Of a DNA stretch of 47,908 bases, positions 42,882 to 47,908 are shown piece by piece. The notes under the pieces are model-generated. The model saw nothing but the letters and a program-made list of their open reading frames with translations, was not told where the DNA came from and made no database searches. Positions within the stretch are counted from its first letter, which is position 1. The number at the start of each line of letters is the position of its first letter. The stretch comes from Burkholderiales bacterium (GTDB lineage Bacteria > Pseudomonadota > Gammaproteobacteria > Burkholderiales > Burkholderiaceae_F): the NCBI GenBank assembly GCA_900290335.1, contig OKRD01000113.1, positions 32,974 through 80,881 of the forward strand, in the 5' to 3' direction. The position numbers were made by a program, and so were the translations under genes.

Positions 42882-44195
42882 ATGAGCTCCTTCGCCCCTT
42901 CGCCGTCCGATCCCTCGAATCGCCTGCGGCGCCTGGTGGCGCTGCGCTGGGTCGCCGTGGTCGCCGAGCTGGGGCTGGTGCTGCTTACGCGCCAGTGGCT
43001 GGGGACGGGAGCAGCGCTCGAGCCGGTCCTGGCGGTGTGCACCGCGCAGCTGGGACTGAACCTGGCGTCGATCGCCTACGGCAGAGCAAGCGCGCCGGCC
43101 AGCGACGGCCAGCTGTTTGCCCAGCTGCTCTTCGACACCGGCGCGCTGACGGCAATTGCGTACCTGGCCGGCGGCTCGACTAACCCGCTCATCGGTCTGT
43201 ACCTGCTGTGGATCGCGGTGGGCGCGGCGATGCTCGAGGCGCGCCTGGCCACGGCGCTGGCCGCGGTCTCGATTGCCTGCTACTCGCTGGTCAACTTCGT
43301 GCACGCCGACGTGCACATCCACGACCACGAGAAGGCGCTCGAGACCCACCTGGTCGGCATGTGGCTGATCTTCGTCTTCTCCGCGATCACCATCTGCTGG
43401 TCCGTGGTGCGCCTGACGGCGGCGGTGCGCCGGCGCGACGCCGAACTGGCGGCGGCGCGCGAGGCGGCGCTGCGCAACGAGCGCGTCGTGGCGCTGGGCA
43501 ACCTGGCCGCCGGGGCGGCCCACGAACTGGGCACGCCGCTGGCCACGATGGCCGTGCTGGCCGGGGAGTTGCTGCGCGACTCGGGCCTGGCGCCGGCGCT
43601 GCGGGCCGACGTCGAGCTGATGCAGGCGCAGGTCAGGGACTGCAAGCGCATCATCACCGAGCTCGCGGCCCAGGCCGGAACCTCGCGCGCCGAGGCCCTG
43701 GGCACGATGGCGCTCGATGCCTGGATCGAGCAGTTGCTTGGGCGCTGGCGAGTGCAACGCCCGGTGATCGAGCCCCAGGTGCGCCTGCAGGGGCCGCGAC
43801 CGGGCCCCCGCCTGGCGATCGACGCGACCCTGGGCCAGGCGCTCGTCAACTTGTTCAACAACGCAGCCGACGCCAGCCCGGAAAAGGTCGAGATTCAGGC
43901 GCGCTGGAGCGAGCGCGAGCTCGAGCTCTTGGTCATGGATCGCGGCAGTGGCATTGCTGCGGACCTGCAGCAACGCCTGGGCCACGATCTGGTGAGCACG
44001 CGCGGCGAGGGCCACGGCATGGGCCTGGTGCTGGCCTTTGCGGCGATCGAGCGCAGCGGCGGGCAGCTGGAGTTTGCCGCACGCGAGGGCGGCGGCACGG
44101 TCGCGCGGCTGCGCCTGCCGCTGCAGAGCCTGCTGGCGCCCGTGGCCGGCGGCCTGACGTCATGGGTCACCGACGTCACGACACCTACGCCATGA
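42882..44195 (+). CDS. regB: Redox sensor histidine kinase RegB/PrrB type
   Basis: A 437-residue membrane kinase of the RegB/PrrB family, which in known cases reads the quinone pool and redox state and phosphorylates RegA. Six hydrophobic segments occupy residues 15-185, with the quinone-site motif GGxxNP at 97-102 (GGSTNP). The H box is AAHELGTPLA with phospho-acceptor His214. Cys254 (QVRDCKRI) lies where RegB proteins carry their redox-active cysteine, though this positional match is an inference. The ATP domain shows NLFNNAADAS and HGMGLVLA. Its stop overlaps the regA start (ATGA). Confidence 0.92.
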   Translation: MSSFAPSPSDPSNRLRRLVALRWVAVVAELGLVLLTRQWLGTGAALEPVLAVCTAQLGLNLASIAYGRASAPASDGQLFAQLLFDTGALTAIAYLAGGSTNPLIGLYLLWIAVGAAMLEARLATALAAVSIACYSLVNFVHADVHIHDHEKALETHLVGMWLIFVFSAITICWSVVRLTAAVRRRDAELAAAREAALRNERVVALGNLAAGAAHELGTPLATMAVLAGELLRDSGLAPALRADVELMQAQVRDCKRIITELAAQAGTSRAEALGTMALDAWIEQLLGRWRVQRPVIEPQVRLQGPRPGPRLAIDATLGQALVNLFNNAADASPEKVEIQARWSERELELLVMDRGSGIAADLQQRLGHDLVSTRGEGHGMGLVLAFAAIERSGGQLEFAAREGGGTVARLRLPLQSLLAPVAGGLTSWVTDVTTPTP

Positions 44196-44749
44196 CCGCG
44201 CCAGAGCGTCCGCAGCACCACGGTAACTTGCTGCTGGTCGATGACGACGCGGTCTTGACGAGGGTGCTCGCCCGCGCGCTGGCCGCACGCGGCTTTGCCG
44301 TGCAAAGCGCCGATTCGGCGCCCTCGTGCGCGGCGCTGCTCGCCCAGGGCTACCTGCCCGACTTCGCCGTGCTCGACCTCAACCTTGCCGGCACCTCCGG
44401 CCTGCAGCTGATCGAGGCCCTCAAGCGGGTCAATGCCCAGTGCGACATCGTCGTTCTCACCGGTTACGCCAGCATCTCGACCGCGGTCGACGCGATCAAG
44501 CTGGGCGCGCGGCAGTACCTCGCCAAGCCCGTCGAGGTCGAGGCCATCGTCAAGGCATTGCTGCAGGACCAGGAGCCCGATGCGCACGCTGCGCCCGAGC
44601 AGACCCTGTCCGTGCCGCGCCTGGAGTGGGAGCACATCCAGCGCGTGCTGGCCGACAACGACGGCAACGTCTCGGCCACGGCGCGCGCGCTCAAGATGCA
44701 CCGGCGCACGCTGCAGCGCAAGCTGGCCAAGCGGCCGGCCCGGCAATAG
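44192..44749 (+). CDS. regA: Response regulator RegA/PrrA type
   Basis: A 185-residue two-domain regulator. The receiver domain has the DDD acidic pocket, phospho-acceptor Asp62 (AVLDLNL), a TGYAS threonine and the KPVE lysine. A short proline-containing linker leads to a Fis-like helix-turn-helix (GNVSATARALKMHRRTLQRKL), the near-invariant DNA-binding part of RegA/PrrA/ActR. Members control energy metabolism genes in response to oxygen. It is coupled to regB by a 4-base overlap, and the pair forms a two-gene operon here. Confidence 0.94.
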   Translation: MTAPERPQHHGNLLLVDDDAVLTRVLARALAARGFAVQSADSAPSCAALLAQGYLPDFAVLDLNLAGTSGLQLIEALKRVNAQCDIVVLTGYASISTAVDAIKLGARQYLAKPVEVEAIVKALLQDQEPDAHAAPEQTLSVPRLEWEHIQRVLADNDGNVSATARALKMHRRTLQRKLAKRPARQ

Positions 44750-44827: not shown

Positions 44828-45952
44828 TCAGCGCACCAGCGCTTTGAGCGTGTTGTCCCCGTCGTCGACGAAATACAGACCTCTACCGCGCGGCGCGAGG
44901 GTCAGCCCGAACAAGCTGCCGGCGCCCGTGGCAAAGTCGACGGTTTTCACGGCGGCCTGGGCGCCGCCGGGCGTAGTCTCGACCAGATTGCCATCTCCCG
45001 CATTGGCCGTCAGGATGTTGCCGTTAGGGGTAATGGCCAGCCCGAGCGGCCCGTTCAATGACCCGCCATGCGCCACGGTCAATCCGGTCGGCAGCGCGGT
45101 CTGGCGCGTCAGGGCATCGGGGATCGCGGCAATCCGATTGTTGAGCGTATCGGCCACGTAGAGCGTCCCGTCCCAGGACAGCCCCAGCCCGGTGGGACCT
45201 ATGACGAGGGCGACCGGGTCCGCGGTCTCGGAGAATCCGGATCCAATTACCGTCGTCGCCACCAGACGCGGCCGCCCTTGCCCCTGTTCCGGAACCTCCA
45301 GGACGATTCGGAGCACCGTCCCCTCGTTGACGACGTGAGGACTGCCGCTTGTCACGTTGCCGTTGAGCACGTTGCTGACGAACAAGATCGCATCATCTCC
45401 CTCGTCCAGGGCCGTCATGTCCCAGGGGCCGTCGATGCCGGCGCCGCGGAAGGTCTCGACGACCGTGCCGTGCGCGTCCAAAACGAGGAGGCAACCCGCA
45501 CCGGCATTGACCGCCTGTCCCGTGGAGCTGGGCAGGCTGCCCACGATCACCCAGCCGCGCTCGAGCACGACCAAGGCGGTCGTCAGGCCGACGCCTCCCG
45601 GGCATTGGCCATCGAGCTTGGCCGGATTGATCTGCGCAAATACGCCGATGCGGCCCTCGGGATCGATCTGCACGATCGTCGTCCCGGTTCCCTGCAGGTT
45701 GGCCGCGTCATTGAAATTGCTGATCAGCACGTTGCCGCGATGCAGGGCTCCCATGGTCCGCGTCACCGTGGCAATGCCGTAGGGATTGAGGTCGCCGTTG
45801 GGCGGGATCGTCGAGGCGATCGTCACGATCCTCGGGAACCGCTGCAGCAATGCCTCGTCGTCGGCGCGCACCGGCGTCGTCAAGACAAGGAAGGCGATCG
45901 CCGCTGCGGCGATGCGCAGGCAAGGCGTGACGAATCGGCATAGCTCCAACAT
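44828..45952 (-). CDS. Secreted NHL-repeat/beta-propeller protein
   Basis: A 374-residue exported protein with a Sec signal (CLRIAAAAIAFLVLTTPVRA) and about six repeating blades. The repeat pattern resembles NHL or SMP-30-like propellers, for example LSWDGTLYVADTLNNRIAAI, LAITPNGNILTANAGDGNLVE and GLTLAPRGRGLYFVDDGDNTL. No catalytic residues can be assigned. The start at 45952 follows GAGGAGAAG. It is divergent from the ECF sigma operon across 171 bases, so it may be a target of that sigma factor, which is a guess. Possible roles are binding of a ligand or partner protein in the periplasm. Confidence 0.8.
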   Translation of the reverse strand: MLELCRFVTPCLRIAAAAIAFLVLTTPVRADDEALLQRFPRIVTIASTIPPNGDLNPYGIATVTRTMGALHRGNVLISNFNDAANLQGTGTTIVQIDPEGRIGVFAQINPAKLDGQCPGGVGLTTALVVLERGWVIVGSLPSSTGQAVNAGAGCLLVLDAHGTVVETFRGAGIDGPWDMTALDEGDDAILFVSNVLNGNVTSGSPHVVNEGTVLRIVLEVPEQGQGRPRLVATTVIGSGFSETADPVALVIGPTGLGLSWDGTLYVADTLNNRIAAIPDALTRQTALPTGLTVAHGGSLNGPLGLAITPNGNILTANAGDGNLVETTPGGAQAAVKTVDFATGAGSLFGLTLAPRGRGLYFVDDGDNTLKALVR

Positions 45953-46018
45953 GGTCTTCTCCTCGTTTGGTGGCGATAGGATGGGCCGCGGTGAATGCCC
46001 GCCCCGGCGTAAGAGGTT

Positions 46019-46041
46019 TCCCGCACCGCGTCTGTGCGGGA
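46019..46041. repeat. 8-bp inverted repeat upstream of the NHL and ECF genes
   Basis: TCCCGCAC (46019-46026) and GTGCGGGA (46034-46041) are perfect complements around a 7-base loop, in the middle of the divergent gap. It may be an operator or a transcript hairpin. Confidence 0.45.
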
Positions 46042-46068
46042 TCCTCGGCACGGAGTAGCGTCCCGGTG

Positions 46069-46096
46069 TGAACCTTTTCGCCGGACGAGGGAATTA
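46069..46096 (+). promoter_or_regulatory. Possible ECF-type promoter
   Basis: TGAACCTTTT begins at 46069, about 55 bases before the sigma factor start. It resembles the GAAC-type -35 box of ECF promoters, with a GAATTA sequence about 16 bases after the AACC core (from 46091). Autoregulation by the sigma factor is usual in such operons. The -10 assignment is weak. Confidence 0.35.
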
Positions 46097-46123
46097 ACGC
46101 AAATTCCCGAGGAGCAGCGCGCC

Positions 46124-46723
46124 ATGCTGCAGCGTCGCACGACCAGCCTGAGCGGCGGCGTCAGCGGAGCCGATGCCGCTGGCGCGAGCGAGTTCGCCCT
46201 GCTGCAGCGGATCGCCGCCGGCGACCGCGCCGCCTTTGAGTCGCTCTACCGCTGTTACTTTCCGCGGCTGACGCGCTTTCTGGAGCGCGTGCTGCGCCGC
46301 CCGCATGCCGTCGAGGAGGTGCTCAACGACGCAATGCTCGTCGTCTGGCGCAAGGCGGCAAGCTTCAATGGCCAGTCGAAGGTCTCCACCTGGATCTTTG
46401 CCATCGCCTACCGCCGGGCACTCAAGGCCATGCAGCGATTCGACGATCCGGTCGAATTCGACGCGGAACAGGCCGTGTCAACGCTTCCAGGTCCCGACCG
46501 CGCGCTGATGCAGCGCGAGCTCGCCGCGGCGCTCGACCGGGCCATGGCGTGCATGTCGGCCGAGCACCGGGCCGTGGTCGAGCTCACGTACTACCAGGGC
46601 CACCCCTACCGCGAAATTGCCCAGATCATGGGCTGTCCCGTCGATACCGTGAAGACCCGCATGTTCCACGCGCGCAAGCGCTTGCGCCAGCTGCTGCCCG
46701 ACCGGATGGAGGACTTGCCATGA
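46124..46723 (+). CDS. ECF-family RNA polymerase sigma factor
   Basis: A 199-residue sigma-70 family ECF factor with only regions 2 and 4. Region 2 runs from FESLYRCYFPRLTRFL through VEEVLNDAMLVVWRKA to STWIFAIAYRRALK. Region 4 contains VVELTYYQGHPYREIAQIMGCPVDTVKTRMFHARKRL with the helix-turn-helix. It starts at 46124 after GAGGAG, and its stop overlaps the anti-sigma start (ATGA). It should direct transcription of its own operon and other targets when released from the anti-sigma factor. Confidence 0.94.
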   Translation: MLQRRTTSLSGGVSGADAAGASEFALLQRIAAGDRAAFESLYRCYFPRLTRFLERVLRRPHAVEEVLNDAMLVVWRKAASFNGQSKVSTWIFAIAYRRALKAMQRFDDPVEFDAEQAVSTLPGPDRALMQRELAAALDRAMACMSAEHRAVVELTYYQGHPYREIAQIMGCPVDTVKTRMFHARKRLRQLLPDRMEDLP

Positions 46724-47385
46724 CCGGAGACGTGCTTCCCTTTGCAAAATCCCAGCACCAGCGCGCGCGCGAGGCGCTTCCCTGGTTCTTGATGGGAACG
46801 CTCGAGCCCGACGAAGAGCAGATGGTCAAGAGCCACCTGCAAGGCTGTGTCGACTGCCGCGCGCAACTAGCTACGGAGCGCCAACTCCAGGAGGCCTACG
46901 CGGGCAGCGACAGCGAGCGCGACCCGGAGGCAGCGCTGTCCCGGTTGCGCCCGCGCCTGCTGGCCACGCGCGAGGGTCAGACGGCGTGGCCGGCGCGCCT
47001 GCTCGATCGTCTGCGGCGTGCGCGGCGTGCGCTGCCCGCGTGGGCCACACTGGCGCTGGCCACGCAGCTGGGGATCATCCTGGCGCTCGGATGGGCGCTC
47101 GCGGGCACCGACGTGGCGAACGACTCGTATCACGCGCTCTCCTCCCCCGCGCCGGCGATCCAGGCTCAGGGCAAGCTGGTCATCGTCTTTGATCCGGGCG
47201 CGCCACAGCAAACCGTGCAAGCCCTGCTGCGCAGCTCGGGCGCGCGGATCGTCGACGGGCCGCTGGCCTCGGGCGCATACGTGCTGGACGTGCCGGCGGG
47301 CGGCATGCGCTCGGCGCTCGAGCGGCTGCGTGCCGAGCACGCCGTCACCCTGGTCGAACTGCTGCAATCGCGCGACACGCCATGA
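46720..47385 (+). CDS. Anti-sigma factor with zinc-finger domain and ferredoxin-like periplasmic tail
   Basis: A 221-residue membrane protein. The N-terminal zf-HC2/ZAS domain shows HLQGCVDC (HxxxCxxC), which binds and holds the sigma factor in the cytosol. One transmembrane helix (ATLALATQLGIILALGWAL) follows near residues 106-127. The periplasmic tail from residue 152 appears to form strand 153-157 (LVIVF), helix 163-173, strand 175-179 (ARIVD), strand 186-192 (AYVLDVP), helix 196-205 and strand 209-213. This is a beta-alpha-beta-beta-alpha-beta order. Its second half aligns by eye with the N-terminal region of the next gene's protease. It is coupled to the genes on both sides by ATGA overlaps. 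Confidence 0.87.
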   Translation: MTGDVLPFAKSQHQRAREALPWFLMGTLEPDEEQMVKSHLQGCVDCRAQLATERQLQEAYAGSDSERDPEAALSRLRPRLLATREGQTAWPARLLDRLRRARRALPAWATLALATQLGIILALGWALAGTDVANDSYHALSSPAPAIQAQGKLVIVFDPGAPQQTVQALLRSSGARIVDGPLASGAYVLDVPAGGMRSALERLRAEHAVTLVELLQSRDTP

Positions 47386-47908
47386 TCGGCCGCGCCCGCC
47401 GCTGGCTCGCGTTGCTGCCGGTTTTGGGCCTGGCCGCGTGCGCGGCCGGTGGCCCCGATCCAGTGGTCGGGACGACAGCACGCGATGCCGCGACGGGCGA
47501 GCAGATACTCGTGATGCTGCCGATCGCCCCGGCTCATTTTCGGCCCGGCGCCGATTACGCCGGCGGCTACGACGAGCAGGCCGGCCGCGACGCGCGGCGC
47601 CGGATCGCCGCAGAGCTGGCGAGCACGCACGAGCTTGAGCTCGTTTCCGACTGGCCCATGAGCTCGCTTGGGGTCGACTGCTTCTTGATGAGGCTGCCCG
47701 GTGGCCGGCCTGCCGGCCCTGTGCTCGATGCGCTCGCCCGCGATCCGCGCATCGCCTGGGCGCAGGCATCCAATACCTTTCGTATGCAGGGGCACGGTGA
47801 CCCGCTGGTTGCGTTGCAACCCAGCGCCAAAGCCTGGCACCTCACCCAGATTCACCGGCTCGCGACCGGTCGCAATGTTGTCGTTGCGCAACTCGACAGT
47901 GGCGTCGA
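47382..47908 (+). CDS. Subtilase (S8) family lipoprotein protease, N-terminal part (cut by window end)
   Basis: The first 175 residues of a serine protease. It begins with a lipoprotein signal (WLALLPVLGLAAC, lipobox Cys20), so it should be anchored in a membrane facing the periplasm. Residues 41-133 look like a protease prodomain: strand 42-46, helix about 70-82, strand 86-90, strand 99-105 (DCFLMRL), helix 113-120 and strand 124-129. The window ends in VVVAQLDSGV, which matches the catalytic-Asp motif of subtilisins (Asp172). The Ser and His regions are outside the window. It overlaps the anti-sigma gene (ATGA), and the three genes form one operon. Confidence 0.85.
   Translation, partial: MIGRARRWLALLPVLGLAACAAGGPDPVVGTTARDAATGEQILVMLPIAPAHFRPGADYAGGYDEQAGRDARRRIAAELASTHELELVSDWPMSSLGVDCFLMRLPGGRPAGPVLDALARDPRIAWAQASNTFRMQGHGDPLVALQPSAKAWHLTQIHRLATGRNVVVAQLDSGV

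Follow-up and report, generated by a model that had tools for sequence, protein, structure and literature searches.

The stretch of DNA analysed here (the window) comprises 47,908 nucleotides of contig OKRD01000113.1 of a Burkholderiales bacterium, and its last 1.8 kb carries the gene of an extracytoplasmic function (ECF) sigma factor, followed by an anti-sigma factor gene and the 5′ part of a gene for an exported protein (Table 1). The first two genes overlap by 4 bases (46720–46723). The anti-sigma factor features a zf-HC2 domain, an adjoining ECF gene, and a membrane helix and belongs to class I of the ZAS (zf-HC2) anti-sigma factors; the helix is predicted by AlphaFold2 at residues 107–129, its membrane character being read from the sequence. 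A linker connects this helix to a C-terminal tail that resembles a subtilase prodomain. The window copy of the exported protein has 175 residues and is cut off by the contig end just past the Asp motif; this truncated copy alone gives no Pfam match, and its complete relatives are subtilases of family S8. Such a domain of the prodomain kind occurs on anti-sigma factors encoded beside an S8 subtilase in many bacteria that are only distantly related, and this suggests that the domain serves the cell in sensing the protease it exports.

Table 1. Features of the sigma factor locus, in window positions
Feature	Position	Strand	Basis
Putative ECF-type promoter TGAACC-TTTT-N-ATTAACG before the sigma gene	46069..46099	+	By-eye alignment of relatives; regex counts
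ECF sigma factor, 199 aa	46124..46723	+	Sigma70_r2 and Sigma70_r4_2 (Pfam); NCBIfam sigma70-ECF above cut-off
Anti-sigma factor, 221 aa: zf-HC2, membrane helix, linker, tail	46720..47385	+	PF13490 at residues 15–47, above Pfam cut-off; structure prediction
Linker motif Y137-H-A-L140, candidate site-1 cleavage site	47128..47139	+	Class-wide [FY]x[TAVSG]L; linker pLDDT blocks 47 and 56
Prodomain-like tail, residues 149–215, PF22148	47164..47364	+	Pfam; AlphaFold2; VIA
Exported S8 subtilase, 5′ part, 175 aa	47382..47906	+	Lipobox-like LAAC 17–20 by reading; complete relatives are S8
Subtilase N-terminal prodomain, about residues 41–133	47502..47780	+	Aligned region of relative L021, beta-alpha-beta-beta-alpha-beta
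Predicted autoprocessing motif F133-R-M-Q136 of the subtilase	47778..47789	+	Class-1 profile against pro-subtilisin E (3whi)

ECF sigma factor, tail-bearing anti-sigma factor, and exported S8 subtilase form one conserved and widespread block. The preliminary description of this DNA had proposed a functional pairing of tail and protease and a search for it elsewhere in the order. A search of 399 genomes of the order with an anti-sigma profile gave 51 matches in 45 genomes, 41 of them including the tail and 10 without it, and the tallies were read by eye from several outputs. An S8 gene lies directly next in 31 of the 41 (window included), a C14 gene lies next in three and divergent in one, and one match stands at a contig end. 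Neither S8 nor C14 was found in the fetched stretches around nine tail-less anti-sigma matches; locus L061 (G259:C26), whose tail is ambiguous between alignments and which has a C14 gene next, was counted apart from these nine. The reverse search started from the subtilase: among the best 80 of 513 S8 relatives, 45 have this anti-sigma factor beside them by the same kind of by-eye reading (43 by script, L116 by reading, and the divergent L111), 44 of them with a match to the tail profile (all except L130). These 45 are all among the 53 first-ranked of the 80, with none among the 27 last-ranked, which come largely from Streptomyces, other actinobacteria, and bacilli. The carriers belong to several proteobacterial classes and beyond and include Duganella, Janthinobacterium, Massilia, Undibacterium, Nitrosomonas, sphingomonads, Phenylobacterium, Gluconacetobacter, and Bradyrhizobium as well as gammaproteobacterial, acidobacterial, and Desulfobulbaceae metagenome-assembled genomes (MAGs).

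A hold-out set was drawn from 398 genomes of the phylum, in which 30 loci were found and four dropped since their genomes had been used before; the 26 used loci span 14 genera, two of which contribute seven loci each, and rows without a locus were not classified. All 26 loci carry both ECF and S8 genes—the S8 gene directly downstream in 23, upstream in two, and divergent in one—and 24 match the tail profile, L180 and L183 matching the whole anti-sigma profile only. Some relatives extend the block by a protein of the Gcw_chp family (PF09694), encoded as the fourth gene in L021 (5783–6469) and L027 (6131–6832) and just before the S8 gene in L111 (3942–4688). In L111, an Acidobacteriota MAG, the sigma and anti-sigma genes are divergent to the Gcw_chp and S8 genes and hence do not form one operon with them. 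Tail-bearing anti-sigma-like proteins with no protease in the fetched stretch occur in L077 (two proteins, 445–858 on the minus and 1567–2271 on the plus strand), L074, L078, L080, and L081.

The tail matches PF22148, the Fervidolysin_NPro-like family of subtilase prodomains, at residues 149–213 of the anti-sigma factor with 24.4 bits against a cut-off of 21, and the 73-residue tail alone reaches 27.4 bits (E 4.4e-6). It is the sole PF22148 match in the source genome, which is 83.5% complete. The AlphaFold2 model of the tail, built with 36 sequences, features strands at 149–157, 176–179, 186–192, and 209–215 and helices at 163–172 and 196–205, with blocks of predicted local distance difference test (pLDDT) values of 91–97 over residues 151–210 and 81 over 211–220. 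The N-domain of the complete subtilase relative L021 (422 residues) is predicted with strands at 36–42, 81–88, 93–99, and 119–124 and helices at 58–77 and 106–114. Both regions thus follow the order beta-alpha-beta-beta-alpha-beta that the preliminary description had read from the sequence. The whole L021 model superposes on pro-Tk-subtilisin with a Z of 39 over residues 34–404, and fervidolysin ranks third in its Foldseek list. In contrast to the PF22148 family, whose members stand in cis before a subtilase catalytic domain, the tail forms the C-terminal domain of an anti-sigma factor; the subtilase is encoded by the adjoining gene, and the relative of this subtilase carries an N-domain of its own. 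Therefore, the tail is termed prodomain-like and not a prodomain.

Within the families covered by the VIA list, the best structural match of the tail is POIA1 (Z 8.8, 2.3 Å, 66 residues), followed by the prosegment of subtilisin BPN′ with a Z of 8.5; DAHP synthase, a mitochondrial ribosomal protein, and NikR come within 1 Z of these scores. Foldseek gave no match to the tail model at E ≤ 0.001, its list containing chain 3wqb_B of the ASP/ORF2 complex at E 0.015. POIA1 (1v5i) and ORF2 (3wqb), which we take to act in trans on subtilases, are like the tail in being prodomain-fold domains made apart from the protease and differ from it in being free proteins, the tail being the outer end of a transcriptional regulator. 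Ferredoxin-like folds are widespread and the scores tie with unrelated domains, so that the fold alone is neither specific nor a proof of kinship. The resemblance could accordingly be one of fold only, with neither prodomain descent nor prodomain function behind it, a reading further served by the PDB profile search with the tails, in which no prodomain was found, and by PF22148 reaching E < 0.01 in just nine of 39 relatives' tails, the window tail included. It leaves to be explained that PF22148 lies above its cut-off in the window and attains an E of 9.5e-10 in the best of the 39 tails.

A further line of evidence comes from comparing the tail with the prodomains of the partner subtilases. 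The preliminary description had aligned the second halves of the two window regions residue by residue. The score of this window pair is reached by 299 of 2000 shuffles, which is within chance, and its best local alignment differs from the one drawn at that time; what stands is the part played by the second half at family level. A profile of 39 of the 46 tails (36 of the 46 entered the structure alignment; L089, with a masked stretch, was omitted from both) was run against 5,383 mechanically listed open reading frames (ORFs) of the fetched loci, from which 103 anti-sigma matches were removed, leaving 5,280 with 114 S8 proteins among them. S8 proteins occupy all of the top 10 and 17 of the top 20 non-anti-sigma ORFs, as compared with one of 20 for the reversed profile and zero to two of 20 for 20 column shuffles. 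These matches mostly pair the second half of the tail with the S8 prodomain and include S8 proteins from outside the system (L161, L133, L166, L146). The single matches are not significant (best 12.2 bits, E 0.064), and they are not independent since the S8 proteins are related to one another; some shuffled profiles score up to 18.5 bits on unrelated ORFs, their best S8 score being 6.0. The first rank of S8 for the tail profile, together with the clean rank controls, argues against a mere common fold—which the chance-level window pair would suit—and leaves that explanation very unlikely.

Profile–profile comparison (hhalign) of the tail with the S8 N-domain aligns 30 columns in the second halves at a probability of 22.9%. 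The S8 N-domains fit PF22148 less well than the tail does, with a best E of 0.027 in six, 0.031 in 13, and 0.039 in 21 proteins. Because of this better fit and the weak profile–profile similarity, the tail appears as an old relative of the prodomain class. The kinship is real at the family level and weak at the residue level as judged by sequence comparison, and PF22148 and the profile ranking support an old relation to that class. The earlier idea of a tail copied from the prodomain of its neighbor is not supported: a recent copy was rejected since the sequences do not back it, with 30 columns in the profile–profile comparison and a window pair within the shuffles.

The partner proteases fall into several types. 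In class 1 (the window type), all 20 complete S8 relatives retain the catalytic Asp, His, and Ser as read from the alignment, and PF00082 matches 20 of the 21 members of this alignment, the miss being taken as the truncated window copy. Class-2 S8 proteins keep the oxyanion Gly-Asn in 12 of 12 partners, several of them having long Pro-rich N-termini, and the Bradyrhizobium-type partners (alpha AAGN) keep it where parsed, in six of 10. In L023, L025, L087, and L088, the third gene encodes a C14 caspase-like protein, with Pfam E values of 1e-38 to 2e-39 for L023, L025, and L088 and identification by a local profile for L087; the C14 matches of L061 and L076 have E values of 2e-10 and 2e-8. The L023 and L025 proteins read as carrying twin-arginine signals. 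This C14-type pairing is seen at L023 (3239–4126, minus strand), L025 (4600–5463, plus strand), L087, L088, L061, and L076 with linkers such as IRALRA and LRATKA, which might suit Arg/Lys-specific cleavage. In L121 (Sulfitobacter algicola), the gene after the S8 gene reads as caspase-like p20, and therefore a single system may contain both protease types.

The linker between membrane helix and tail is modeled in low-confidence blocks (pLDDT 47 and 56) and is probably disordered. It carries the pattern [FY]x[TAVSG]L—chosen post hoc from the sequences—in all 51 dereplicated class-1 systems and in none of the 36 others, "class 1" meaning in this count any S8 system that is neither class 2 nor among the 10 alpha AAGN loci; 91 rows were dereplicated to 87 for it. 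The window linker reads SYHALSS, with the motif at Y137–L140. Composition shuffles of the class-1 linkers contain the motif in 2.9 of 51 on average and in 10 of 51 at most, and one of the nine tail-less anti-sigma factors has it. In the hold-out set, where six of the 26 linkers were read by eye, it occurs in four of five class-1 loci and in none of 21 others. Class-2 linkers feature PL[SGN] in 10 of 13. A PLSG/PLAG stretch common to anti-sigma factors and S8 junctions of three class-2 systems (L070, L082, L083) was not used, as it would lie on the primed side and other class-2 pairs are without it.

The own junction of the S8 proteins behind their prodomain reads [FY]xx[LMQRE] in 40 of 43, with L 18, Q 9, M 8, R 3, and E 2 at the fourth position, as found by a regular expression restricted to [LMQAER] there. 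When the class-1 S8 profile is aligned with unprocessed pro-subtilisin E (3whi), its f-r-v-l falls without gaps on A-H-E-Y, the last four propeptide residues, and the natural cut is presumably the one after the Tyr. Because the S8 junction motif falls on the propeptide end, the class-1 linker carries what looks like the P4–P1 signature of the protease itself. Window-type tails end five to 11 residues past their last strand (one 18, median 8), near the would-be P1, class-2 tails one to seven, and C14-type tails six to 10 (L061: 2). Product-like inhibition by the free C-terminal end of the tail was considered and is regarded as no more than possible, the last residues being unlike FxxL.

Co-divergence was judged by a mirror-tree comparison of 48 systems, which remained of 75 after 22 had been dropped for failure of the Asp-motif regular expression and five as near duplicates; the distances come from short domains, and partial Mantel tests are lenient. 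With sigma factor and anti-sigma domain removed, tail and S8 prodomain distances correlate with a partial r of 0.43 (permutation p 0.001), as compared with 0.03 (p 0.18) for anti-sigma domain and prodomain when sigma factor and tail are removed. With ranks and quadratic terms, the values are 0.24 for the tail and 0.17 for the anti-sigma domain, both at p 0.002. In the Asp-type subset of 36 systems—cut by a loose regular expression that also lost L041, L044, and L090, which read as Asp-type—they are 0.36 (p 0.002) and 0.10 (p 0.11). When the catalytic domain is removed as well, tail and prodomain correlate with 0.20 in the 48 and 0.25 in the 36 systems. Conserved neighborhood, tail-specific association, co-divergence, and a linker motif like the processing site of the protease together give strong support to the functional pairing proposed in the preliminary description.

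A conserved TGAACC-TTTT-N-ATTAACG element, aligned by eye in relatives, precedes the sigma gene. Its regular expression, made post hoc after the aligned sequences had been read, matches 18 of 50 class-1 upstream regions (shuffle mean 0.035), one of 10 in the alpha type, and none of 19 in other tail-bearing systems; it replaced a poor first expression, GAAC[CT]-N14-18-CG[AT], with 14 of 61 matches against a shuffle mean of 4.7 and maximum of 14. In three of three genomes, the exact pattern occurs once, each time before this operon. With two mismatches and fixed spacing, there are two sites in G000, one in G007, and four in G022, whose own site is spaced otherwise, i.e., one, zero, and four extra sites, and the reversed control with two mismatches gives one, zero, and one. 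Because the exact promoter occurs once per genome and few sites appear with two mismatches, the sigma factor seems mainly to serve its own operon, as far as sequence patterns tell. The S8 gene, lying in this gene block behind the promoter, could then be a mere output of the sigma factor, with the tail sensing something else and shared regulation accounting for the linkage; C14 proteins as other partners of the tail, and the few tails with no protease in the fetched stretch, would fit this. The zero of nine among tail-less anti-sigma factors, the co-divergence of tail and prodomain, and the class specificity of the linker are not expected from an output alone, and we regard this alternative as quite unlikely.

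The reading that we prefer, and to which we give even weight for and against, is a self-contained envelope circuit in which the S8 subtilase acts as a dedicated site-1 protease docked by the pseudo-prodomain of the anti-sigma factor; binding and cleavage are what we infer here. The S8 protein would be kept latent by its own prodomain, which would be removed by a cut after the [FY]xx[L/M/Q] motif. The anti-sigma tail would compete for, or dock at, the same face of the mature protease and thereby present the linker, which mature S8 would cut after the Leu (L140 in the window). Proteolysis in the membrane and in the cytoplasm would then free the sigma factor, and the freed sigma factor would make more of its own operon—the S8 subtilase and, in some relatives, the Gcw_chp barrel-type protein. 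Such positive feedback would fire once mature S8 is present in the periplasm, making S8 both the product of the sigma factor and its likely informant. This site-1 model explains the prodomain-like tail, the conserved pairing, the linker motif, and the co-divergence together.

Several observations count against the site-1 model; weighing most are the oxyanion Asn, which is usually missing, and the pairing of the tail with caspase-like proteins. In class-1 S8 proteins, the Asn of AAGN is replaced by Asp in 19 and by Ala in one of 20 complete sequences, the position being read by eye in a loop that is one residue shorter and uncertain in register, and the window copy ending before it; activity may therefore be low. 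The hold-out class-1 member L191 has the Asn (AAYN). The tail has C14 caspase-like proteins as partners as well and hence is not specific to S8, and five of the 41 tail-bearing matches in the order have no protease in the fetched stretch. The linker motif was selected with the sequences in view, and the fifth hold-out class-1 linker reads YRTF. The linkers of alpha AAGN-type, class-2, and C14 systems are different, so that a single cleavage rule cannot serve all systems. The last residues of the tail are unlike the FxxL in which a processed prodomain ends, and one to 18 residues lie between the last strand of the tail and the C-terminus. Among the 48 systems, the anti-sigma domain correlates weakly with the S8 catalytic domain as well (0.16, p 0.001), and with ranks and quadratic terms, its correlation is 0.17 for the prodomain and 0.24 for the catalytic domain. 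Lastly, 32 of the 50 class-1 upstream regions have no match to the promoter expression.

As an alternative, the tail could act in trans on S8 as an inhibitor or a folding aid, in the way of POIA1 or the Aeromonas ORF2 chaperone; binding alone would then change the anti-sigma factor, and another protease such as signal peptidase or a DegS-like enzyme would make the first cut. POIA1, tied with others, tops the structural matches of the tail, the ORF2 complex appears in its Foldseek list, and a usually missing oxyanion Asn would suit a bound and poorly active S8. A precedent is RsiV, an anti-sigma factor that binds the enzyme lysozyme and is cut by signal peptidase (PMC4183432). The likeness of the linker to the S8 processing site and its change with the S8 class are left unexplained by such an inhibitor, and we hold it to be unlikely, though the most probable of the alternatives to the site-1 model. 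In a wider form, the site-1 model would describe a subtilase-based signaling class: a pseudo-prodomain captures a dedicated exported protease, the linker copies its autoprocessing site, and maturation of the protease turns on the operon that encodes it. Caspase-like proteases would have come to be served by the same module, fitted with another linker motif. We propose this generalization tentatively, with somewhat less confidence than the circuit itself.

Several known systems bear comparison. RseA/DegS/RseP and other ECF systems controlled by regulated intramembrane proteolysis (RIP) likewise have a membrane anti-sigma factor with a cytoplasmic sigma-binding domain, a periplasmic part, and an expected periplasmic first cut (PMC8103513, PMC4183432). 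Here, a subtilase from the sigma factor's own gene block is the candidate first protease, and the periplasmic part resembles a subtilase prodomain; the match of the window system to the RIP-controlled ones consists of its architecture and a candidate site. In Bacillus RsiV, the outer domain binds an enzyme as well and so controls its own first cleavage, whereas lysozyme is foreign and signal peptidase cuts (PMC4183432); in the window system, the enzyme is the cell's own, is encoded by the adjoining gene, and may itself cut. The mammalian site-1 protease with its partner SPRING is similar in being an S8 site-1 protease with an inhibitory prodomain that a licensing partner displaces, and it differs in being eukaryotic and in having a separate partner protein, whereas the prodomain-like partner here would be fused to the substrate (PMC11231238). 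ECF54 has subtilase, carboxypeptidase, and CHAT proteins near the sigma gene and is described in PMC8999054 as being without an anti-sigma factor, which is present here and bears the tail. Extra domains of anti-sigma factors have been mapped with Pfam 31.0 (PMC7406223), and envelope proteases that report to sigma factors—DegS, PrsW, and signal peptidase—are discussed in PMC4183432. The open-access literature searched yielded no description of a prodomain-like anti-sigma factor or of this gene arrangement; the 2021 ECF reclassification, which lies outside this search, may list S8 neighbors for some group.

Two further features adjoin the locus. An exported-looking protein is encoded at 44828–46051 on the minus strand, divergent to the sigma operon and sharing a common intergenic region with it. 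Upstream of the locus, at 42882–44749 on the plus strand, lie genes of a sensor kinase and a response regulator, by reading similar to a RegB/RegA-type pair.

Only for a few envelope proteases is it known how they signal to sigma factors, and the site-1 model, if true, would add the subtilase class to them and provide a bacterial counterpart of the mammalian site-1 protease logic. It would also give a clear prediction of which enzyme cuts which anti-sigma factor and after which residue, and it would hint at what many of the secreted subtilases and caspase-like proteins encoded beside ECF sigma genes do.

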